Origin: Cytophagaceae bacterium
Lineage (GTDB): Bacteria; Bacteroidota; Bacteroidia; Cytophagales; Flexibacteraceae
Assembly: GCA_027485575.1 (NCBI GenBank)
Contig: JAIXQU010000073.1
Coordinates: 1 to 32,691, forward strand
DNA length: 32,691 nt
Reading direction: 5' to 3'
The translations under genes and the position numbers were made by a program. This document shows positions 19,513 to 32,445 of the stretch, in pieces (the first letter of the stretch is position 1; each line of letters opens with the position of its first letter). Under the pieces are notes generated by a model. It worked only from the letters and a program-made list of their open reading frames with translations. It did not search any database and was not told the origin of the DNA.

Positions 19513-22500
19513 ATGCAAAAATATTTTACCGCGTTTGTCTTATATCTATTTTGTAGTTTCCTAAGCTTTAGTCAAAATAATACTGATTTTACATTGCTGT
19601 TAAAATCGGGCAACCAAATACCGATATCGAATAGCGCAAGTTTTAATCCGGATAGAGAAACCATTGAAATAAAATCGTTTGAAGGCAAGTGTTATTTGCT
19701 GGCTCAGTTCCTGGAAATGCCCAATGATGCAGCCAAACAAAAGCTAAGTACGGAACTTGGCGTGGAATTTCTGGATTACATTCCAAACAACGCCTTCATA
19801 ATTTCCATTCCAAGCCAAAATGCAATTTCCAGCCTCAAAGGATATGGAATCAGGTATTTGGAATTCGTTTCTGAAAACATAAAACTAAACCAGGCCCTTT
19901 TGTTTGTTTCAGATGTACCCGCTTACGCAAAGCAAGGGAGTGATGTAATCGTTAATATTTCCGTTTATTCGAAAACAGAGGTAAAAAAGATTGTTGCTGA
20001 ACTTTCCCAAAAAGGATTAAAAAACATAAAGCAAAGGCCAAATGCCAACACTTTTACTGGAGAAACTGCATTTGAAAATATTAAAAACATAGCCAAAATT
20101 CCAGCAGTTCAGTGGATTGAACCCGGTGGACAAAAAGATGAAATCAACAATTATGCAGGCGTGGCCACCCACAGAGACAATGTATTAAACAACAGCTTAG
20201 GCAGAAATTTACGAGGTCAAAATATTTGTGGAGGGGTTGGAGATGGTGGTTTTGTGAGGCCACACCTCGATTTTGGAACAAGACTAATCAACGTAAATCC
20301 AAATACGATAGTTTCTTTTGGCGACCATGGTGACCACGTTTCCGGCACTGTTGGGGGAGCAGGCGTTATCAATCCGGACAACAGAGGAATGGCACCTGAA
20401 TGCTCCCTTGTGACAGAGCAAACCAGCGCCATTGTTTGGGGAGCGCCAACTTTTTACAGTACCTATAAAATGGTGGTTACCAATAATTCTTACGGATTTG
20501 CCATTGCATGTCCTGCAACTGGAACCTATGGAAGCTATGGAACTACTTCAAGGGATATTGACCAGCAACTTCTGGCCAACCCAAAAATCATGCATTGCTT
20601 TGCAGCTTCCAATGATGGAGGTATAACACCTTGCGGAAGTTATACTGGAGGATTTGGAACCATTTCAAATGGCTATGGAAATTCAAAAAATGCCCTTATT
20701 GTAGGTGCCGCAAGTTCAGATGATGTCCTGGCAGGATTTAGCAGTCGGGGGCCTTGTGGAGACGGACGGGTAAAGCCGGAAATTGTGGCTGTTGGAACTT
20801 CTGTAAATTCCACCATTCCAACAAATGCATATGGTTTAAAACAAGGAACGAGTATGGCCACTCCCGGAGTAACGGGTTCGCTATTATTGCTTTATCAAAG
20901 GTTCAGACAGTTAAATTCTGGCCAGGACCCAGATGGTGCGTTGATAAAAGCTGTAACCTGTAACACTGCTGATGATGTTGGAAATGCCAACGTAGATTAC
21001 CGTCATGGCTTTGGAAGAATCAACATGCTAAGGGCAGTAACTGCTTTAGAGGAAAGCCGATACATCACCAATTCGATAAGCCAGGGAGGTACTTTGGATT
21101 ACACCTTAACAGTTCCTGCCGGTGTTTCTCAGGTTAGGGTTTTGTTGTATTGGGCAGATAAAGAAGCCTCCGCTTCAGCTTCCCCGGCTTTGGTTAACAA
21201 TTTGAATCTTCAGGTAATTGACCCATCGGCCGTAGCCTGGAATCCTTGGACTTTAGACCCAACACCAGCCATTGTTAATGCCAATACTGTGGCAACAAGA
21301 GGTGTAGATAACCTCAATAATATTGAACAAGTAACATTAAATACCCCTGTTGCCGGAAATTATACCATGCGGATAACTGGACCAAGTATTCCATTTGGTC
21401 CTCAGAAATTTTATCTGGTGTATGAAAATTTGAGTCCATCTGTAACGGTTACGCATCCTTTTGGAGGTGAGCTTTTCACACCGGGAACCACACAAACCAT
21501 CCGTTGGGATGCCTTTGGATTGACCACCGGAACATTTACACTTCAATATTCCACAGATGAAGGTACAAACTGGACCAATATCACCACCGCTCAAAACATA
21601 GCAAACAGAAGATTTAACTGGACTGTTCCTGCCATTGCTTCTGACAAAATGAGGGTTCGGGTTTTACAGGTTGGCGGTGCAGGTTTAAGCGATTTAAGTG
21701 ACTATAATTTTACCGTCCTGGGAACTCCGGTTCCAGTTGCTACAGTTTGCGACAGGCATGTTTACTTATCCTGGCCAGCCGTAGCAAATACTTCCTCTTA
21801 TGAAGTTTATAGATGGAACGGCAGCAGTTTCGATTTGGCTGCGACGACTTCAGGCACAAGTTTTAGCTTTTCTAATCTTGTAAATGGGCAACAGTATTGG
21901 TATGCCGTAAGGGGCGTTCATTCTTCAGGATATTTTAGTCGGAGAAGCACTGCAATTTCTGGAACTCCTTCTGCATTAACCGCTTGCCCTATTACCAATG
22001 ACATTGGGATTTATGCCATTGTGGCCCCGATTGATGGAAGAGAGTCAACATCGAATTCAAGAACAGCGGCTGAATCAATCCAGGTAACTTTGAAAAACTA
22101 CGGAAATAACAACCTGAATCTGGTTTCTGTTCCTCTCAATTACACTCTGAATGGAGGGCCTACCCAAACAACGTTTTTTACAGGATTACTTAATGCCAAT
22201 ACTTTAACTAGTACTTTGACTTTTTCATCTCCAGCAAATATGGCAAGCCCGGGAAGCTATAATTTTGTTATCTGGTCAGATCTGGCTGGTGACAACAATG
22301 CCAGCAACAATGCCATTTCGTTAACGGTGCGACAACTCGCAAATTCGGCCATAACACTTCCGCTTACTGAAAATTTTGAATCAGCAACGCCAGCAACCTA
22401 TTTAAATACAGCTTTTGGCATTCCAGGAATTACCAGATTTGATTTCAGCGGAAATAACGCCAGCTCCAGGTTAAGGACCAATTTTCTACCAGCCATTGAA

Positions 22501-24831
22501 GGTATCACAAGCACAAGAACCATTACAATGGACCGCTCCACTTCGGGTGTAAATGTGCAGAACTCGCTCATTTACACTGTTAATATGAGTGGATATAGCA
22601 CCACGTCAAGCATTTTAATTGATTTTGACTACATGCACCATGGGGAATTAAACAACACATGGGAAAGAGTCTGGGCAAGAGGAACAGATGCGCAGGCCTG
22701 GGTCCAGGTGTATGATTTGTTTGCCAACCAGGGCGTAGCCGGAACGGTAAATAAAGTGCGAGGATTGGACATCAAATCTGCCTTGGGGGCACAAACCATT
22801 GGAACAAGCTTTCAAATTCGTTTTGGCAGCGAACCAGGAAATACAGCTACCAGCACCACATTAAATCAGGGTTATACTTTTGATAATGTGCGGCTTTCTG
22901 AAGGTGGAAATGATTTGGCCCTGGTTTCTGTTTTAAATCCGGTTTCGTCTTGTGGCGCAAGTGGCGCACAAAATCTGACGGTGCGGGTTAGGAATAATTC
23001 AAGTGCTGTCCTTTCAAATATCCCCATTCAATATCGGATTAACAATCAGTCAGTGGTAACAGCCTCTATTCCGGGCTTAACACCCGGCCAAACCCTTGAT
23101 TTTACCTTTCCTGACCAAATAACGCTAACCGGAAGTCCAACATATAACATTTCAGTTTGGGTTGATTGGACGGGGCCAAGTCCACAGGCAGATTTGTATA
23201 AAATCAATGATTCAATCAAAAATTTTGTAGTAGTACCAACTGTGGTTAGCTATCCTTATCTGGAAGGGTTTGAAGCGGGCAATTCTGGCTGGATAGCTGG
23301 AGGAACCAATTCAACCTGGGTAGCAACCATCCCTACACCCGCGAAGAGTCAAATCAAAAATGCTGCCAATGGAAGTATTTGTTGGGTAACGAATGCTTTT
23401 GGCAACTATGCTGACAATTCAGATTCCTGGGTAGAATCACCATGTTTTAATCTAACAGGTTTAAGTAATGGCATGGTTTCTTTCTCTTATGCTTCGGTTA
23501 CTGAGAAGGATTGGGATTTTGTTTGGGTAGAATATTCTGCCAATGGTGGCGCATGGACCAAATTGGGCACTTCCGGACAGCTGGGATCAACCAACTGGTA
23601 TAATAGAACTGCGAATAATACCTGGCATGATGGCCAAACTCCATGGAGAGGTGTTTCCTGCCCGATTCCTGCTGGCGCAGTTTCGGTGAGTACAAAATTC
23701 AGAATCCGCTTTACTTCAGATGGTTCTGTAAACCAGGACGGTGTCGCTTTTGATGATTTTCATATTTATTCTTCAACTGCCATTCACAGTACAGCAGGTG
23801 ATTTATTTAACAGAACCGCCACATCCAATAATTCCGGTAACTGGGTTTTTGTGAACAATGCCTCCGGCCACAGGATTTTTGGGTTTTTAGACAATCAGAA
23901 TTTGGGAACCGTTTCTGTAAATGTTCAGGTAAATAACGGCCCGGTTCGTGAAAATGAAGGTCTTTACTACCTGGATAGAAATTGGGTGGTGAATCCGGCC
24001 AATGGCCTGACTTCCAGCCTTCCTGTTCGGTTTTTTGTGCGTCATCAGGAAATATTGAATCTGATTAACTTTTCTTCCGTTGTAAAATCTTTTCAACAGC
24101 TTGGCTTGCATAAATATTCGGGTCCCATTGAGAACTTTGATTTGTTTGACAACATAGCCGGACCGGGTAGCAGCTTGTTTACCAAAGCAGGAACGTGGGT
24201 GCCTTTTATGGATGGTTATTATTTTGAAACCAGCTTTAATTCAATGTCGGAGTTTCGGTTTGCAGAAGCAGCATTTACTGAGAATACCCCATTAAGCCTA
24301 AGTCAGATTTGGTTGTCTGGAAGAAAAGAAACGAATGGAAATCATGTTCTCAGATACAAATTGGATGATGTTGAAAGTGCCGAAAGCTTAAAACTACAAA
24401 GGAGTTTTGATGGCCACCATTTTGATGAAATATCAGAAATAGGCATTTCCAAGGAAGGCCTTCATATTGAAAAAATAACCAAAGCAGAAGCCAGAAAACT
24501 GGTTTACTATAAACTTGTTGGAAAAGAAAAGGGAGGTAAGCTGCTTTCGTCCAACGTAGTGATGATGGGAAATCTGTATGAGGGACGAATAACCATGCGG
24601 CCAAATCCGGCAATGGATCAAATTACATTTTCTTCGTTTTCGGGTGCTGAAGATGATTTTGAATTGTTAATGACCGATGTAACAGGAAAACAGGTTTACA
24701 GAGGTGTGGAGCAAATGTCGGATGGCAATTTTCAATTGAACCTTAAATCGCTTGGACTGCCAAAAGGATTGTATTACATACGGTTGCGGTCGGATTCAGA
24801 AAATAGTACCCACAAGTTGATATTGGAATAA
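19513..24831 (+). CDS. Giant T9SS-secreted subtilisin-like protease (S8)
   Basis: The 1772-residue protein has a signal peptide (1-20), then an inhibitor-like prodomain (about 50-130). The S8 catalytic domain (about 215-505) has the likely triad Asp244 (GVGDGGF), His272 (DHGDHVSGT) and Ser447 (GTSMATPG), with the oxyanion Asn367 (AASNDGG). After it come a jelly-roll segment (about 515-640), Ig-like repeats (Ser/Thr-rich, about 645-735), a fibronectin III module (about 737-817), CARDB-like segments (for example about 830-940 and 1140-1240), a MAM/jelly-roll-like module (about 1250-1420), and a C-terminal T9SS type A sorting domain (last ~75 residues: RPNPAMDQITFSS, LPKGLYYIRL, HKLILE). It should be exported through T9SS and cut external proteins. 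The His motif is HGDH instead of HGTH. Confidence 0.92.
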   Translation: MQKYFTAFVLYLFCSFLSFSQNNTDFTLLLKSGNQIPISNSASFNPDRETIEIKSFEGKCYLLAQFLEMPNDAAKQKLSTELGVEFLDYIPNNAFIISIPSQNAISSLKGYGIRYLEFVSENIKLNQALLFVSDVPAYAKQGSDVIVNISVYSKTEVKKIVAELSQKGLKNIKQRPNANTFTGETAFENIKNIAKIPAVQWIEPGGQKDEINNYAGVATHRDNVLNNSLGRNLRGQNICGGVGDGGFVRPHLDFGTRLINVNPNTIVSFGDHGDHVSGTVGGAGVINPDNRGMAPECSLVTEQTSAIVWGAPTFYSTYKMVVTNNSYGFAIACPATGTYGSYGTTSRDIDQQLLANPKIMHCFAASNDGGITPCGSYTGGFGTISNGYGNSKNALIVGAASSDDVLAGFSSRGPCGDGRVKPEIVAVGTSVNSTIPTNAYGLKQGTSMATPGVTGSLLLLYQRFRQLNSGQDPDGALIKAVTCNTADDVGNANVDYRHGFGRINMLRAVTALEESRYITNSISQGGTLDYTLTVPAGVSQVRVLLYWADKEASASASPALVNNLNLQVIDPSAVAWNPWTLDPTPAIVNANTVATRGVDNLNNIEQVTLNTPVAGNYTMRITGPSIPFGPQKFYLVYENLSPSVTVTHPFGGELFTPGTTQTIRWDAFGLTTGTFTLQYSTDEGTNWTNITTAQNIANRRFNWTVPAIASDKMRVRVLQVGGAGLSDLSDYNFTVLGTPVPVATVCDRHVYLSWPAVANTSSYEVYRWNGSSFDLAATTSGTSFSFSNLVNGQQYWYAVRGVHSSGYFSRRSTAISGTPSALTACPITNDIGIYAIVAPIDGRESTSNSRTAAESIQVTLKNYGNNNLNLVSVPLNYTLNGGPTQTTFFTGLLNANTLTSTLTFSSPANMASPGSYNFVIWSDLAGDNNASNNAISLTVRQLANSAITLPLTENFESATPATYLNTAFGIPGITRFDFSGNNASSRLRTNFLPAIEGITSTRTITMDRSTSGVNVQNSLIYTVNMSGYSTTSSILIDFDYMHHGELNNTWERVWARGTDAQAWVQVYDLFANQGVAGTVNKVRGLDIKSALGAQTIGTSFQIRFGSEPGNTATSTTLNQGYTFDNVRLSEGGNDLALVSVLNPVSSCGASGAQNLTVRVRNNSSAVLSNIPIQYRINNQSVVTASIPGLTPGQTLDFTFPDQITLTGSPTYNISVWVDWTGPSPQADLYKINDSIKNFVVVPTVVSYPYLEGFEAGNSGWIAGGTNSTWVATIPTPAKSQIKNAANGSICWVTNAFGNYADNSDSWVESPCFNLTGLSNGMVSFSYASVTEKDWDFVWVEYSANGGAWTKLGTSGQLGSTNWYNRTANNTWHDGQTPWRGVSCPIPAGAVSVSTKFRIRFTSDGSVNQDGVAFDDFHIYSSTAIHSTAGDLFNRTATSNNSGNWVFVNNASGHRIFGFLDNQNLGTVSVNVQVNNGPVRENEGLYYLDRNWVVNPANGLTSSLPVRFFVRHQEILNLINFSSVVKSFQQLGLHKYSGPIENFDLFDNIAGPGSSLFTKAGTWVPFMDGYYFETSFNSMSEFRFAEAAFTENTPLSLSQIWLSGRKETNGNHVLRYKLDDVESAESLKLQRSFDGHHFDEISEIGISKEGLHIEKITKAEARKLVYYKLVGKEKGGKLLSSNVVMMGNLYEGRITMRPNPAMDQITFSSFSGAEDDFELLMTDVTGKQVYRGVEQMSDGNFQLNLKSLGLPKGLYYIRLRSDSENSTHKLILE

Positions 24832-26233: not shown

Positions 26234-26561
26234 AACAGCTTCAATTCCAGAAAATATCTTTCAGTTGCTTTGTTTTATTATGATTACAGGAATTCCACTT
26301 CATTTTGAAGGTGATAACCATCAGGAGAGCACTTCGTAAATTTCGGGATATTTGGGAAATTTAGAAGATAGGTGAGGATAAATGCCACGTTTTAGAATAT
26401 GAAATTGCATGTGAAACCGGTTCGGAGAGCCTTCAAGTCATTGGAAATCCTTAGAGTCCGTTTGAACCTTAGGATGAACATAGTATGGTACATGATTTAA
26501 AAGCCAAAATTTAATTGCGTAAATTCATATTTGAAACTATAGCTTTATCCATTTTCCTACA

Positions 26562-26577
26562 AGATTAGGACTAATCT
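26562..26577. promoter_or_regulatory. Operator-like perfect palindrome
   Basis: AGATTAGGACTAATCT has 7-base arms (AGATTAG/CTAATCT) that are exact reverse complements around a 2-base centre. It lies in non-coding DNA 461 bases before the accessory operon. Its size fits a binding site for a dimeric regulator. No regulator gene is in the window. Confidence 0.35.
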
Positions 26578-26900
26578 CAAAAACTGTATCTTAACCATTA
26601 TGAAAATTATTTTTATACCTTAATTCAATAAAATACCATGATATAAGAATATTTGAGTAAATTTTTTAAATCGAGAAAGAAGAAACATAGATTTTAGCGG
26701 TAAGAGTTTGGAATTCAAAAAATCTAGTTTTTTATTTGCTAATTGATAACTTCATAATTTAATCAAGAATACGTTTCGATAAAGTTCTGTTTTGTTTAAT
26801 TGACTACTGCAAGGGCAATTAGTTTGTTTTATATTTTTATAATCATAATCTATTAAGTGTATTCTTATAAAGTAATCTAAAGCCATTATAGCTCAGGGCG

Positions 26901-26980
26901 TGAAAGAAATTTTTTGCAGTTTTTTTAACCTTTCAATTTTCGAACAAATCAAAGAATTTCTTTCATATCCAATAGTTTTG
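26901..26980 (+). promoter_or_regulatory. Inverted repeat plus -7 motif: likely promoter/operator of the six-gene operon
   Basis: TGAAAGAAATT (26901-26911) and AATTTCTTTCA (26955-26965) are exact 11-base reverse complements with 43 bases between. Seven bases after the second arm lies TAGTTTTG (26973-26980), an exact TAnnTTTG -7 match, 57 bases before the ATG of the protease gene. The second arm would overlap the -33 to -10 region, so a bound regulator could block or loop the promoter. No good TTTG was found at -33, which would fit an activator-dependent promoter. Confidence 0.5.
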
Positions 26981-27037
26981 CTATAAATTATATTCAGTTA
27001 CAATTCTTTCTTAGGCATAAGAAAAAATAAAATAAAT

Positions 27038-27919
27038 ATGAAATCGTTGTCTTTTTTATTTGCATTCATTACACTTCAAAGTGTAGCCCAGAATAAATTG
27101 TCGACTCAAGACCTATTTTCAAAAGCTTCACCATCCGTTATTTTAATAGAAGGTAATAATTCGATTGGTTCAGGTTTTTTTATTACGGCCTATTTAGTCC
27201 TTACAAATTATCACGTTGTTCAAAACTTCGGTCAATCATATACATATCGTCTATCTTATAATAATATTAAAATGCCTATCCGAAAAGTTGTTTGTTTTAA
27301 CAGTACACTTGACCTTGCCATCCTGGAAGTAGAGGAGGCTGGAATTCCACTGAAGTTCGCATTTACAGAATTAACTAGTGGATCTAAAGTGTATTCAATA
27401 GGAAACCCTATGGGACTTAAAAGTATAATTTCCGAAGGATTATTTAGCGGAAATTTCATAATAAACGGAACAGAAAGGATGCAATTCAATGCAGCCATTA
27501 GTCCTGGGTCGAGTGGAGGGCCTATTATGAATGAAAGTGGAGATGTGGTCGGCATAAATGTAAGCTCACTTAAAAATGGGCAAAGTATTAATTTCGGAGT
27601 TCCGATGAATTCAGTTTGTGCTTTTCTAAAAGAGAATAAAATTTTAAGTAGCTGCTATATTACAGATGATGTTAAGGAAATTTCAATTTATAAGCTTAGG
27701 TCCAAAAATTCAAAAGATGAAATCGGACTACTTTCTTTTGATGGAAAGTTTAAAAACTGTATTATAAAAATGATAGGATATAAAAAAATGTTGACAGGAA
27801 AACTTGACGATACAGGTAAATTAATTCAGCTAGAAACCAATGAGACAATTCCATTCCCTATTATTAATAATTCTGATGTATCTATATTTAGTAGGTCTGT
27901 AATACTTAGTAGTAAATAA
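27038..27919 (+). CDS. Exported trypsin-like serine protease (S1C, DegP-type catalytic domain, no PDZ)
   Basis: The 293-residue protein starts with a signal peptide (1-17, ending SVAQ). The chymotrypsin-fold domain has the complete triad: His59 (LTNYHVV), Asp92 (STLDLAIL) and Ser159 (SPGSSGGPI), with VYSIGNPMGLKSIISEG between, as in DegP/HtrA. Unlike HtrA it has no PDZ domain. Residues from about 210 on form a short beta-rich tail without known motifs. It should act in the periplasm. It is the first gene of the six-gene set and the next start is 2 bases after its stop. A+T content is visibly higher than in the left part of the window. Confidence 0.87.
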   Translation: MKSLSFLFAFITLQSVAQNKLSTQDLFSKASPSVILIEGNNSIGSGFFITAYLVLTNYHVVQNFGQSYTYRLSYNNIKMPIRKVVCFNSTLDLAILEVEEAGIPLKFAFTELTSGSKVYSIGNPMGLKSIISEGLFSGNFIINGTERMQFNAAISPGSSGGPIMNESGDVVGINVSSLKNGQSINFGVPMNSVCAFLKENKILSSCYITDDVKEISIYKLRSKNSKDEIGLLSFDGKFKNCIIKMIGYKKMLTGKLDDTGKLIQLETNETIPFPIINNSDVSIFSRSVILSSK

Positions 27920-27921
27920 GT

Positions 27922-28737
27922 ATGAGGTTAATTACGTTTTTAGTGATTATAAGTTTTGCTCCAACAATAGACGCTCAAGATAATCGCATACATTTATATC
28001 TATCTTCATCATTACCAGAGATGAAAATTTTAGACATTACAAAGAAAAATACGGGAGTTTTTTTTCAATGTGATTCTATTGAGGAAAATAGGAATACAAG
28101 AAAAGTTAGTTTATCTATCATTGATACCACAAAAAAAATGACATCTTGCGTACCACTTCTAAAAATAAAAAATGGTAAAATAAGCTTATATGAAACGCCA
28201 CAAGTGCCGACTAGTCTTTTGATATTTTATGAAAAGGATAAACAAAGGGGTGGATTAGTGGTTGAAGAGGGAAATACTATAAGACTATTTAATAAGGATG
28301 GATATGAAACCTATGATAGAATTAATGAAAGGGGAAGACTTAAAATATTACATTTTTTATCCTACTATAAAGGAACAGCAATTGAATTGCCTAGCCTAAA
28401 AATAAACATGGGAGATATAACTAATAAAGATACAATATCAAAAGATTTTGTAATTTTGGTGATAAGTAGGGATGTTAATAAAGACATTCACCACACATTT
28501 ATTTTCCCTAAAGACCCTATAAAGTCAGACCAGTACTATTATTCTACCAATTTACTTTCAACGATGCTAAGCAAATTTTTGAGCGAAAAAAATCTTCATG
28601 TTATTTCAAGTTTACTTATACCCGGAATTTTAGTTACTAAAGATCCATCTCTTTCAAATTGGGTGTTAAATGATAAATCTATAATGTCTTTAAAAAATGA
28701 TTCGAATGAGATTAACCTTAATTATTATTTTTGGTAG
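27922..28737 (+). CDS. Unrecognised secreted protein
   Basis: The 271-residue protein has an N-terminal signal peptide (about 1-18, ending TIDAQ) and no other membrane segment. I do not recognise a family. The composition is Lys/Ile/Asn-rich with many predicted strands. Two cysteines (CDSI near residue 50 and SCVP near residue 75) could form a disulfide in the periplasm. A helix-like stretch (LSTMLSKFLSEKNL) lies near the C-terminus. It starts 2 bases after the protease stop, and its last 41 bases overlap the start of the next gene, so co-translation is likely. Its position suggests a partner or substrate of the protease; that is inference from position only. Confidence 0.7.
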   Translation: MRLITFLVIISFAPTIDAQDNRIHLYLSSSLPEMKILDITKKNTGVFFQCDSIEENRNTRKVSLSIIDTTKKMTSCVPLLKIKNGKISLYETPQVPTSLLIFYEKDKQRGGLVVEEGNTIRLFNKDGYETYDRINERGRLKILHFLSYYKGTAIELPSLKINMGDITNKDTISKDFVILVISRDVNKDIHHTFIFPKDPIKSDQYYYSTNLLSTMLSKFLSEKNLHVISSLLIPGILVTKDPSLSNWVLNDKSIMSLKNDSNEINLNYYFW

Positions 28738-29236
28738 TACTCTATTTAGCTGCAATTCCCCTTTACCAGAATTTAATTTAACTCCTGGTACACAAGATGC
28801 TTTGAAGATATTAGAACCCGATTTTGAAAAGAATTTAAATCTAAAAAGGCACTTTCAAAAAAATTCCATCTGTGAGTTCCTTGCTTTTGTTAACTATTTG
28901 GATACAAGTTCAATTATAATTAAATCTCAATACTCTGCCGATATTAAGAGCCTTATTCTTTCTGATGTTAAACATTATTTTTCTCTAGAGGAATCATGCA
29001 GTGATCAAGAATGTTACCCAGAATTGGAGAAATTGATGGCATTAAAAAAAGCTTATATTTTTCCTAGAGTAACAAAAAATGATAAAATTTTTTATCATGT
29101 AAAAAATGGTAATTGGGAATATTTAACAAAGAAAGCTTTAGAGCCTGGCACAATTGAGTATGTAAGGGGGCTAGGTATTGTTTTAGTCAGTTTAATTGTA
29201 TTTTTAACACTCTATTTTAAATGGAAAAAAAAGTAA
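28697..29236 (+). CDS. Small lipoprotein with C-terminal membrane segment
   Basis: The 179-residue protein has an N-terminal signal ending in a lipobox-like GSTLFSC (Cys19), which should be lipidated by the Lgt/Lsp pathway. The C-terminus has a clear hydrophobic helix (about residues 155-172, GLGIVLVSLIVFLTLYF) followed by KWKKK. So it would be anchored at both ends, with the ~130-residue middle in the periplasm and the basic tail in the cytosol. The middle carries Cys residues, including CSDQEC. I do not recognise a family. Two start codons are possible, ATG 28697 and ATG 28706; the second gives the cleaner signal. It overlaps the gene before by 41 bases (or 32) and the gene after by 16. Confidence 0.7.
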   Translation: MIRMRLTLIIIFGSTLFSCNSPLPEFNLTPGTQDALKILEPDFEKNLNLKRHFQKNSICEFLAFVNYLDTSSIIIKSQYSADIKSLILSDVKHYFSLEESCSDQECYPELEKLMALKKAYIFPRVTKNDKIFYHVKNGNWEYLTKKALEPGTIEYVRGLGIVLVSLIVFLTLYFKWKKK

Positions 29237-30159
29237 TAGTAGGTCTATATATTTTCATGTTTATAGGTCATTTTAATCTGTCTTTTTCTCAATTATCTTC
29301 AGGGCCTATTAATGGTATCACTCAAGAATTTGGCAAGGACGTTAACACTGAGATCCTTGAAGAATATGGAAGTCCAATAGGTACAATTACATATTTAAGA
29401 AGAGCCTCAAGAAAGGTGAAAGCCAAGTTTTTTGCTTATAATCCTAATGTAAGAACATCTGCATACACAAGATTTCTTGATTGGAAAAAAAATAAAAATG
29501 TAATTTTATTAACAAGTGCAGGTTTTAGCCAATCATTAGATTACCCCATATGCAAAGGATTATGTGTTGAAGAAGGCGAAATTATTGGGTCATCTGTTGA
29601 TAATGATTTAGATGGTTTGGTATTTATTTATGGTTATGGTGCTGATGCAGGAGGAGTAGTTCTTGTCGATCTAGATAAAGACTATGGGAAGATGACACTT
29701 AATAGTACAGAATATAGACCTAGGCTGACACCGTCTAGTTTTGTTAATGCTTGTGGAAGTGCCGGAGCTTTTGCTTTTCAGACACAGTTATTCTATTTTA
29801 CAGATAAGGAAAGATTTTCATGGACTAAGTCTCAACCCGAAAAAAGGTCAAGGCGTTACTTTGCGGTAGTAAAAAAGAATGGTGAAGTTAGTCACGTGGT
29901 ATTCCATATTCCAAGGGAAGTAGCGCTTACCGATTATGCTGTAAAGGCTTACAACCTCTTAAAAAGTAAAAATTATGAGGTCATCGGATTACTAAATTTT
30001 GACACCGGCTGGTACGATTACTTTAGGTTATACTATGATAGTTCGGATGAATACTACGGGTCACTAACAGGGAATGATGGGCAAAAAATCTCACTTATAG
30101 GAAATAGAGATTATGAGATCGAGAAAGCAACAAATTTTATTGTTTACTACTATGAGTAA
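29221..30159 (+). CDS. Secreted protein, putative diverged phosphodiester-glycosidase relative (copy 1)
   Basis: The 312-residue protein has a signal peptide (about 1-24). It is clearly paralogous to the gene at 31026, sharing for example LLTSAGFS-SLDYPIC-GLC, DTGWY and the ASRKV/NSRKV segment. By itself it matches no family I know. Placed beside the phosphodiester glycosidase encoded next door, the same landmarks come in the same order. TSAGF (98-102) stands in place of NGGMY, and GLCVEEGEII (113-122) beside GLFVSNGKII. FQTQLF (186-191) stands in place of TQSGPI, RRYFAVV (211-217) beside RNAVGLS, and FDTGWY (260-265) beside LDGVVS. The catalytic-type motifs are therefore replaced. Cys111, Cys115 and Cys178 are shared with the paralog and absent from the enzyme. 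The TATGAGTAA end contains the start of the next gene. Confidence 0.7.
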   Translation: MEKKVIVGLYIFMFIGHFNLSFSQLSSGPINGITQEFGKDVNTEILEEYGSPIGTITYLRRASRKVKAKFFAYNPNVRTSAYTRFLDWKKNKNVILLTSAGFSQSLDYPICKGLCVEEGEIIGSSVDNDLDGLVFIYGYGADAGGVVLVDLDKDYGKMTLNSTEYRPRLTPSSFVNACGSAGAFAFQTQLFYFTDKERFSWTKSQPEKRSRRYFAVVKKNGEVSHVVFHIPREVALTDYAVKAYNLLKSKNYEVIGLLNFDTGWYDYFRLYYDSSDEYYGSLTGNDGQKISLIGNRDYEIEKATNFIVYYYE

Positions 30160-31033
30160 TCTATTTTTTATTTCACTTTTATTCGGTTTTTCAAATATTT
30201 CTATTTGTCAAACTATTGATTCTACTTCTTTTAACGATATCTCAAAACCCTTATTCGATATTTATTCTCCAAGTTTTTTGGACCCTGAAGAGCAAAATGA
30301 AAACTTGTCTTTTGAAGAAAAGACTCCACTTGGATATTCATTTGTTAATTTTAAAGGCTTCAAGTTTTATATCTATAAGATTAGAAAAACCAGTAGAAAT
30401 ATTCATCTTGAAGGTTATGACAACACTGGTCGACCTAAGTACAGCACACTTAAGAATTTTGTTTCATCGGTAGGGCGAGAAAATTCTGTAGATTTAGACT
30501 TTGCCATGAATGGTGGAATGTATGAAGGAAATGGAAGACCTGTAGGGCTTTTCGTTTCAAACGGAAAAATCATTCAACAACTCGATACTCAATATACCAA
30601 TCCTAATGAGGTTAATTTTTATATGCAGCCCAATGGTGTTTTTTACAGCTACTATGATAGAAGTGGAAAATTATATTGGAATGTAGCTACAACTAAAAGT
30701 TATAATATTTTAAGTAAATCTTGCAAGATTAAAGATGCCACTCAATCAGGCCCAATATTGATTGATGATTGTTTAATAAATAAAGCATTTGGTACTAGAT
30801 CTTCAAATAAAAAAATAAGAAATGCAGTGGGGTTAAGCGATGAATTTATTTATTTTGTAATGTCTTATTCTGAAACAAATTTTTATGATATGGCATATTT
30901 CATGCAAACTTACTTACGAGTTCAAAATGCATTATACTTGGATGGTGTAGTTTCACAATTTTATTATCATCCAAAAAGGAAATTTTTTGGAAGTAGCGTG
31001 CCCATAGGTCCAATTATCTCTGTTTATGAATAG
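30152..31033 (+). CDS. Exported phosphodiester glycosidase family protein (NAGPA/DUF2233)
   Basis: From the chosen start the protein has 293 residues. Family marks in order are FAMNGGMYEGNGRPVGLFVS (about 117-136), MQPNGVFYS, ATQSGPILID (about 196-205), KIRNAVGLS, SETNFYDMAYFM and NALYLDGVVSQFY with Asp264, ending VPIGPIISVYE. This is the NAGPA-like domain (PF09992) of enzymes that remove GlcNAc or other sugars from phosphodiester-linked glycans. The frame is also open from an ATG at 30113. The ATG at 30152 was chosen because it puts a signal peptide (MSNLFFISLLFGFSNISICQ) at the N-terminus and overlaps the upstream stop as ATGAGTAA. It should be periplasmic or surface-exposed. Its own stop overlaps the next gene by 8 bases. 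Confidence 0.88.
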   Translation: MSNLFFISLLFGFSNISICQTIDSTSFNDISKPLFDIYSPSFLDPEEQNENLSFEEKTPLGYSFVNFKGFKFYIYKIRKTSRNIHLEGYDNTGRPKYSTLKNFVSSVGRENSVDLDFAMNGGMYEGNGRPVGLFVSNGKIIQQLDTQYTNPNEVNFYMQPNGVFYSYYDRSGKLYWNVATTKSYNILSKSCKIKDATQSGPILIDDCLINKAFGTRSSNKKIRNAVGLSDEFIYFVMSYSETNFYDMAYFMQTYLRVQNALYLDGVVSQFYYHPKRKFFGSSVPIGPIISVYE

Positions 31034-31943
31034 GCTTTTATTTGCATTTTTTTTGGTTCCAGCTTTACTTCAAGCTCAGTTCAGTGAAGAAAGTATTGAA
31101 GGGTTAACCACAGAATTTGGAAGTGAGGTTAGAACGAACTTATTGGTAGAAAATGATGAAGCTCTTGGAATAATTACTTATTTCAGAAGAAATTCAAGAA
31201 AGGTTATGACTCAGTTTTTTTCTTATGAACCGGGTTCAAGAATATCTGCATATGACAAGTTCAACTCTTGGCGTGGAAATAAAAAAATCATTTTACTTAC
31301 TAGTGCTGGATTCAGTAAAAGTTTAGACTATCCCATTTGTAGTGGCTTGTGTATTGACGATGGAAAAGTTATTAGTAGTTCGTTGGATTATGATAAAGAT
31401 GGTTTGTTTTTTATTACTTCATATCTTAATGAGCATGGCGATATTATTAATGTTAATTTAAAGGATGAGAATGGAAAAATGACTATTGATGACAAAATTT
31501 ATTATCCTCGAATTACTCCATATACCTTTGTTAGAGAATGCTCTGCAGTTCGGGCAACAGTTTTTCAATCTCAACTATTTTATCATAATGATAAAGCATA
31601 TTATGATTGGCCTGATACAGAGAAATATGCCCAGAGAAGATTTTTTGTTGCTTGTTATAAAAACTCTATTAGGTATGATATAATTATTAATATTCCATTT
31701 GAAGCCCCTTTAACTAGTTATGTTTATAAGACATATAAGTATTTAAATAGTTTGGGGTATTATATTCATTCATTGTTTAATTTAGATACAGGATGGTATA
31801 ATTTTTATAGATTGTTTTGCGATAAAGGAGATAAAAACTATACTAAATTAACCGATAGACGGGGTCATACTCTTAGTATGATGGGTGAACGAGATGCTGA
31901 TATTAGCCGGGCTTCCAATTTTTTAGTTTTTTATTGTGAGTAA
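31026..31943 (+). CDS. Secreted protein, putative diverged phosphodiester-glycosidase relative (copy 2)
   Basis: The 305-residue protein has a signal peptide (1-17, ending LLQAQ) and is similar along its whole length to the product of the gene at 29221, roughly 45% identical by eye. It has the same TSAGF (92-96), GLCIDDGKVI (108-117), FQSQLF (180-185), RRFFVAC and LDTGWY (253-258). Cys105, Cys109 and Cys172 match the three cysteines of copy 1. Compared with the glycosidase between them, NGG and QSGP are lost while the probable structural landmarks and the Asp of LDG are kept. It is the last gene of the operon as it stands; the IS begins a few bases after its stop. Confidence 0.7.
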   Translation: MNRLLFAFFLVPALLQAQFSEESIEGLTTEFGSEVRTNLLVENDEALGIITYFRRNSRKVMTQFFSYEPGSRISAYDKFNSWRGNKKIILLTSAGFSKSLDYPICSGLCIDDGKVISSSLDYDKDGLFFITSYLNEHGDIINVNLKDENGKMTIDDKIYYPRITPYTFVRECSAVRATVFQSQLFYHNDKAYYDWPDTEKYAQRRFFVACYKNSIRYDIIINIPFEAPLTSYVYKTYKYLNSLGYYIHSLFNLDTGWYNFYRLFCDKGDKNYTKLTDRRGHTLSMMGERDADISRASNFLVFYCE

Positions 31944-32082
31944 TCTCGGTTATCAAGGAAAAACCTGTGCGGAAGTCAAAGAATGGACTGCTATCATAGG
32001 CCGAGGTATAGCGGTATATTACTGGGTCACCGGAAATTTCTGGGGATCGGAATAAAAAAGTGGTTTGTTTTGGGCGAAAAAA

Positions 32083-32445
32083 ATGGAGATGTTAGAGACA
32101 CTTTTAAGCCTGTTTTTTCCTAAGGAATTAACCCAATATTTCGACCTCAAATCGCATAGGGAGTTCAAGGATGAACGCAGTAGTGCTATGATTCTGGAGA
32201 TGACTTTTGAGGAGAAGAATGAACTTCCACCTGGATATTCAGCCGCTGACTATCAGGCAAAGGACTTTCTTGAGAAAACCATTTTAGATGTCCCGATTCG
32301 AACCCGGCCCGTCCAATTTGTAATAAGAAGGCGAAGGTGGAGACATAAAATCACAGGAGAGATAATTAAAAGAGATCTTTCCTTCATTGCCCAGGACGGG
32401 AAATACACCTCAGATTTGGTGACTTTTTTAAAAGGAGGAGATTGA
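32083..32445 (+). CDS. ISAon1-family transposase N-terminal region protein
   Basis: From ATG 32083 the protein has 120 residues; a TTG at 32065 would add six. The pattern is an N-terminal hydrophobic LLSLFFPKELTQYFDL, then ELPPGYSAADYQAKDFLEKT, the basic strand FVIRRRRWRHKITGEII and a C-terminal DLVTFLKGGD. This matches the short proteins annotated as ISAon1 family transposase N-terminal region, which precede an ISL3-like transposase in Bacteroidota and probably bind DNA. The stop TGA at 32443-32445 follows a strong AAGGAGG. The transposase frame begins in overlap with this end. Confidence 0.8.
   Translation: MEMLETLLSLFFPKELTQYFDLKSHREFKDERSSAMILEMTFEEKNELPPGYSAADYQAKDFLEKTILDVPIRTRPVQFVIRRRRWRHKITGEIIKRDLSFIAQDGKYTSDLVTFLKGGD

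Follow-up and report, generated by a model that had tools for sequence, protein, structure and literature searches.

Two genes of a Cytophagaceae bacterium, A and C, are best read as members of an unnamed protein family, which is separate from PF09992, has a predicted NAGPA fold, and keeps a conserved genomic partnership. They lie in a 32,691-nucleotide stretch of DNA (GenBank assembly GCA_027485575.1, contig JAIXQU010000073.1), here called the window, on either side of B, a gene for a NAGPA/DUF2233 phosphodiester glycosidase. A preliminary description, made from the letters of the window alone, had placed a trio of genes here, and open reading frames (ORFs) of 312, 306, and 305 residues were found at these places. 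The gene X, coding for a putative membrane partner, precedes A and falls almost wholly outside the coordinates of that description. The four genes are listed below.

28697..29236, + strand: X, 179 aa, match to the X hidden Markov model (HMM) with E 4.2e-6; the start resembles that of a lipoprotein (by eye), and a segment at the C-terminus is hydrophobic
29221..30159, + strand: A, 312 aa, predicted NAGPA-fold protein without the NAGPA Asn and Gly-Pro landmarks
30152..31033, + strand: B, PF09992 phosphodiester glycosidase of probably 293 aa, within an ORF that opens at 30113
31026..31943, + strand: C, 305 aa, faster-evolving paralog of A

A and C are paralogs outside the curated families

A and C share 46% identity over 290 aa by BLAST (E 8e-95), and the genes at 29221 and 31026 had been rightly taken as paralogs. 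No significant BLAST match was obtained between A and B or between C and B (best E 2.5 and 0.96). A search of the whole genome found two A-type genes, which are A and C. Neither of them matched PF09992 up to E 10 (cut-off 25 bits), and scans of Pfam, PHROGs, and NCBIfam returned nothing for them apart from one noise match of A. Among the scanned proteins of the A and X families, none reached the cut-off of a curated family, in agreement with the earlier statement that no described family fits. No description of the A family was found in the open-licence papers searched, nor does the family appear in the available portions of PMC12024695, PMC12419801, and PMC11188070.

B matches PF09992 with 63.7 bits (E 3.1e-17; cut-off 25 bits) and keeps the NAGPA motifs MNGGMY, ATQSGPIL, IRNAVG, and LDGVVS (N[GA]G, SGP, RxxVG, and LDGxxS), as expected from its first assignment. 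It is the sole PF09992 gene found in this 3.9 Mb genome, and it sits between the two A-type genes. The ORF of B opens at 30113 and codes for 306 aa. The start is more likely at 30152 (293 aa), because the ATG at 30152 overlaps the stop codon of A in ATGAGTAA. NAGPA enzymes free phosphodiester-linked sugars, according to the available part of PMC12419801.

Relatives of A were collected by a scan of genome_contigs with the A2 profile. The scan gave 36 loci, on which the locus counts below are based. The link of the family to NAGPA was weakly visible at the sequence level. PF09992 matched 5 of the 11 A-family proteins scanned, all under the cut-off (E 7.7e-4 in locus L060, 0.0022 in L054, 0.0071 in L052, 0.0081 in L018, and 0.043 in L019), and the top score was the 20.1 bits of L060. 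Profile-profile comparison of the A family with NAGPA by hhalign gave E 6.7e-4 with a probability of 27%. Within the window the sequence support is weak, with E 0.33 for the A3 HMM on B and E 1.8 and 3.1 for the A4 HMM on A and C. Better cross matches were obtained elsewhere: the nag0 HMM matched L054 (3e-5) and L022 (1.6e-5), and the A2 HMM matched a NAGPA protein of L016 (1.2e-5). Sequence searches of the PDB with the A1 profile and with B gave no NAGPA match, and the search with A4 matched NAGPA chains weakly (best E 0.018).

Predicted fold of A

AlphaFold2 was used to predict the structure of A, one of the two copies, with 36 A-family sequences as input. The model reached a predicted local distance difference test score (pLDDT) of 89.7 and a predicted template modeling score (pTM) of 0.90. 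Its best PDB match was the DUF2233 protein 3ohg (BACOVA_00430), with Foldseek E 6.8e-9, Z 17.9, root-mean-square deviation (rmsd) 3.6, 238 residues, and 11% identity. The mannose-6-phosphate uncovering enzymes (6pkg, 6pki, 6pku, 6pky, 6u11) followed with Z 14.6 to 15.6. After the NAGPA-type matches and 6ozd, the next structure row falls to Z 3.9. On the evidence of this model, A is predicted to share the NAGPA fold. The common fold that had been proposed for the trio therefore stands as a prediction, supported by the match to 3ohg and by the weak PF09992 matches in the family.

Two larger proteins were also similar to the model. Slr0280 of Synechocystis (5h3k) has a NAGPA-type domain that aligns with A over 225 residues (Z 16.1, rmsd 4.3); however, it is 535 residues long and carries a NAGPA-type NALNLDG motif. 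BPSS2145, a putative exported protein (6ozd), aligns over 239 residues (Z 15.6, rmsd 4.2), but its Foldseek E is only 0.011 to 0.015 and its length is 520 to 523 residues. The NAGPA/DUF2233 structures themselves have just 10 to 14% identity to A.

The family replaces NAGPA landmarks with its own conserved residues

The preliminary description had pointed to five landmarks in the same order across the trio, and this order was found in all three proteins. The A-family positions were matched to NAGPA by motif order rather than by superposition, and on this basis the Asn of N[GA]G is present in 33 of 36 linked NAGPA proteins and in 0 of 36 A-family rows. The Gly-Pro pair is present in 36 of 36 and 0 of 36, respectively, which agrees with the earlier claim that the NGG Asn and the QSGP Gly-Pro had been lost. 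A also lacks the Ser of LDGxxS. The counterparts of the RxxVG Arg and the LDG Asp are kept in 36/36 A-family rows.

A different set of residues is conserved in the family. R211, N259, D261, G263, and N305, plus G119 and F186, are invariant over the 36 rows. Between 33 and 35 of the 36 rows have D131, Q187, R212, and T262, and 33 of 35 have R61. F186, Q187, R211, R212, N259, D261, T262, G263, and N305 are all nine present in both A and C. As judged from the motif order, the conserved polar residues would occupy the positions that the motif loops have in NAGPA. The two copies in the window are otherwise divergent: both are without W177 and N123, A is without T184, and C is without G140, all of which are common in the family.

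Two other proposed marks were less general. Three shared cysteines had been regarded as typical of the outer proteins; C111 is found in 2/36 rows (A and C only), C115 in 16/36, and C178 in 7/36, and they do not mark the family. A C-terminal Glu had been noted in all three proteins. It is common in the A family (30/36), whereas only 6/36 proteins have it at the last position of B in the NAGPA alignment.

Sequence identity was compared between related loci. Of the genes compared, A was the most alike in three pairs of loci, narrowly in one of them. Between L038 and L039 the identity is 92 and 90% for A, 70 and 79% for NAGPA, 72% for X, and 82% for LamG. Between L041 and L043 it is 83% for A versus 71% and 51% for the other genes compared, and between L059 and L066 it is 99% for A versus 96 and 98% for NAGPA. 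The ratio of nonsynonymous to synonymous substitution rates (dN/dS) of A is low in the two computable pairs, at 0.028 (dS 1.92, near saturation) and 0.037. One X gene has a ratio of 0.118, two NAGPA genes have 0.161 and 0.046, and the comparison of A with C of the window gives 0.217 (dS 2.34); the remaining pairs are saturated. The near-invariant polar residues and the low dN/dS argue that A is not a decaying pseudoenzyme. The earlier word "inactivated" is apt only in part: the NAGPA Asn and Gly-Pro landmarks are missing, but the family carries a near-invariant polar set of its own.

A recurs with NAGPA and X

The neighborhoods of A were examined for NAGPA with a separate HMM built from 9 seed proteins. 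In 29 of the 36 A loci, a NAGPA gene shares the strand of A and is separated from it by one gene or none. It is directly adjacent in 21 loci, and a single gene intervenes in 8; in L060, one of these 8, the intervening gene is a LamG gene. Anywhere in the locus, NAGPA is found in 30/36. The loci are partly redundant, since L059, L063, and L066 are nearly identical, L038/L039 and L041/L043 are close, and L044 and L064 belong to one metagenome-assembled genome (MAG). When the groups L059/L063/L066, L038/L039, and L041/L043 each count once, the adjacency is 25/32. As to the proposed check whether homologs always neighbor a DUF2233 gene, they usually do, though not always.

The X family is present in 35 of 36 A loci; X precedes A in 28, forms one protein with A in 6, and follows A in 1. 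This count is partly by construction, because the X model was built from 28 X proteins that it then counts; only the fused X, L063, L064, and the X of the window are outside the model. The X of the window matches the HMM of 28 stand-alone X proteins, which excludes it, and it is the sole ORF of the window to match up to E 10. It also stands beside A, with a 16-base overlap with the A start. X-family matches within A-family proteins were also found in genomes G008 and G129. The protein of G061 aligns with that of G008 over 429 columns and has no X match. The occurrence of X-A fusions points to a joint action of the two proteins. Three of the fusions (L058, L069, L070) are in MAGs labeled Verrucomicrobia, Neomegalonema, and Campylobacteraceae, which may reflect inter-phylum transfer or mis-binned contigs.

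The general recurrent unit is X-A-NAGPA. In the phylogenetic tree, A and C are sisters with a support of 100/100 on a long branch, and the branch of C is 1.06 versus 0.25 for A. The enzyme between two sisters, from which the preliminary description suggested a complex, is indeed present here; since A and C are sisters, it is a lineage-specific local duplication.

A LamG-cluster protein is found in 19/36 A loci, and LamG was confirmed by Pfam in the five loci scanned (L017 (= L037), L018 (= L053), L019 (= L046), L045, and L049). Some A loci have LamG, Ig, HYR, OmpA, and kelch neighbors. Assorted secreted-type proteases were also seen near A loci, namely a retropepsin-like (L017:6305-7186), a trypsin-like (L072:2182-3195), and an astacin/matrixin-like one (L047:12520-13857); the window has a trypsin-like one.

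Distribution of the family

The 36 loci are mostly from Bacteroidota, including Flammeovirga, Roseivirga, Aureispira, Hymenobacter, Adhaeribacter, Dokdonia, Saprospiraceae, Chitinophagaceae, and others. Single MAGs with A are labeled Chlorobi, Verrucomicrobia, Neomegalonema, and Campylobacteraceae. Within the order, A is present in 9 of 390 genomes. PF09992 is present in 6 of these 9, each with a copy at the A locus, versus 97 of the 381 genomes without A (Fisher p 0.012). As for the other three genomes with A, all that G085 has is a fragment at the end of a contig, and PF09992 matched nothing in G061 or G129. In the phylum sample, 1 of 395 genomes has the A type, and it is the genome of the window.

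The search with A alone found no match in genome_contigs or viral_contigs, and the A2 profile found none in viral_contigs. Loci L011 to L015 (5 of 13 genomes) were considered as relatives and rejected: those inspected look by eye like chance matches, and their genomes have no A1-profile match at E 1e-4. L010 (= L022) is a true distant member of the family, and L009 is a fragment at a contig end.

Proposed role and alternative explanations

The following role is proposed. A and C would form a NAGPA-fold family in which part of the NAGPA signature has been swapped for its own conserved set, and A would be partnered with a true NAGPA phosphodiester glycosidase, both being parts of a cell-envelope module of Bacteroidota. 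X may hold A at the membrane through its hydrophobic C-terminal segment. R61, D131, Q187, R211, R212, N259, D261, and N305 may share one pocket, and this re-equipped pocket may bind, and possibly cut, a sugar-phosphodiester substrate or product. B would carry out the classic phosphodiester-glycosidase step, with A and B acting on one substrate. The LamG lectin-like proteins in about half of the loci may serve to bind the glycan or to present it. In this genome, A would have been duplicated, with the copy C placed after B. The envelope location is suggested by signal-peptide-like starts, seen by eye, and by the LamG, Ig, HYR, OmpA, and kelch neighbors. A re-equipped NAGPA-fold partner of NAGPA in an envelope module is the best explanation as a whole, and our confidence in it is evenly divided. 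Tentatively, and with some doubt, the module could be an undescribed Bacteroidota envelope machine, in which an X-tethered, NAGPA-paired protein of the NAGPA fold with a new near-invariant active-site-like set binds or cuts phosphodiester-linked glycans of the surface as a new step.

Several observations weigh against this role. In seven of the 36 loci (L048, L054, L061, L064, L067, L070, L071), some of them near contig ends, no NAGPA gene stands next to A or next but one. These loci, together with G061 and G129, indicate that A does not strictly need NAGPA. LamG occurs in no more than the 19 loci and is absent from the run of the window. No X-NAGPA fusion and no A-NAGPA fusion was found in the loci mapped.

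Alternatively, A and C could be catalytically active and represent a new type of enzyme with the NAGPA fold, cutting another phosphodiester or glycosidic bond via D131, Q187, R211-R212, N259, and D261, before or after NAGPA in one pathway. The invariant or near-invariant polar residues over 36 rows, the finding that A is better conserved than X and NAGPA in three pairs of loci, and the retention of residues corresponding to the RxxVG Arg and the LDG Asp are consistent with this. However, the Asn and Gly-Pro landmarks are absent, and a binding site would show the same conservation, which leaves this alternative possible and rather doubtful. The preliminary description had named a new enzymatic branch using other residues as its second alternative; a branch with other residues fits best, although its catalysis is putative. 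A purely structural role, in which A and C have no catalysis, stabilize B as scaffolds or dimer partners, and keep the fold for structure only, is unlikely. The loss of the NAGPA landmarks and the tight gene coupling with B would fit such a role, but near-invariant Arg, Asp, Asn, and Gln at the motif loops would be superfluous in a protein with this role, and A occurs without a nearby NAGPA in the seven loci above.

A mobile conflict system for defense or inter-bacterial competition, with A as a sensor or effector part, is very improbable. The low guanine-cytosine (GC) content of the region (31% versus 40% before and 41% after), the patchy family (9/390 genomes of the order), and the several protease kinds near some loci (trypsin, retropepsin-like, metalloprotease) point in this direction. 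Against it, phage and plasmid records gave no match (one A-family query each), nor did the viral contigs; the proteins are probably extracytoplasmic, judging from their signal-peptide-like starts by eye; and no toxin or immunity gene was recognized, the padloc library not having been searched.

To our knowledge, most bacterial NAGPA proteins have no clear physiological role. A conserved partner family of the same predicted fold, with altered residues and a fused membrane partner, would provide a genetic handle on which envelope glycan the NAGPA enzymes act on. A and NAGPA also offer a natural comparison of two pockets, that of A being predicted, in one fold.

Gene run and surroundings in the window

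According to the ORF listing of the window, six + strand genes are packed head to tail in 27038-31943. The two genes before X are as follows.

27038..27919, + strand: trypsin-like protease (PF13365 E 1.6e-21), first of the packed run; its membership in the module is uncertain
27922..28737, + strand: 271-aa protein, second of the run; fold not recognized and no family match

By the ORF coordinates, the first two genes are two bases apart, and the following overlaps are 41, 16, 47, and 8 bases. The A/B overlap is 8 bases rather than 47 if B starts at 30152. The GC content is 31% in 27038-31943 and 28% in 26234-27037. The GC content at third codon positions (GC3) is 21-26% in the six genes of the run versus 29-43% in 13 other genes of the window. 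The AT-rich region 26234-31943 has the appearance of an acquired island. Scans for promoters and terminators gave results close to the shuffle level.

The gene at 27922-28737 has no match in the Pfam, PHROGs, and NCBIfam family scans. The order of its short stretches recalls A by eye, and it was considered as a fourth NAGPA-fold copy. This candidate was not borne out, with HMM E-values of 7 to 12 and a single-sequence AlphaFold2 model of pLDDT 32. Comparison with the A profile gave Z -0.3 to 0.7 against shuffles, in a weak test that scored B itself at Z 2.1 (local) and -0.1 (semiglobal).

Immediately after the run and close to the window end, a 126-aa ORF at 32065-32445 has weak transposase-like matches (PF14690 E 0.34; PHROGs transposase E 0.056). 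Upstream, a 1772-aa protein at 19513-24831 looks by eye like a secreted protease of the subtilisin type whose C-terminus is of the type IX secretion kind.

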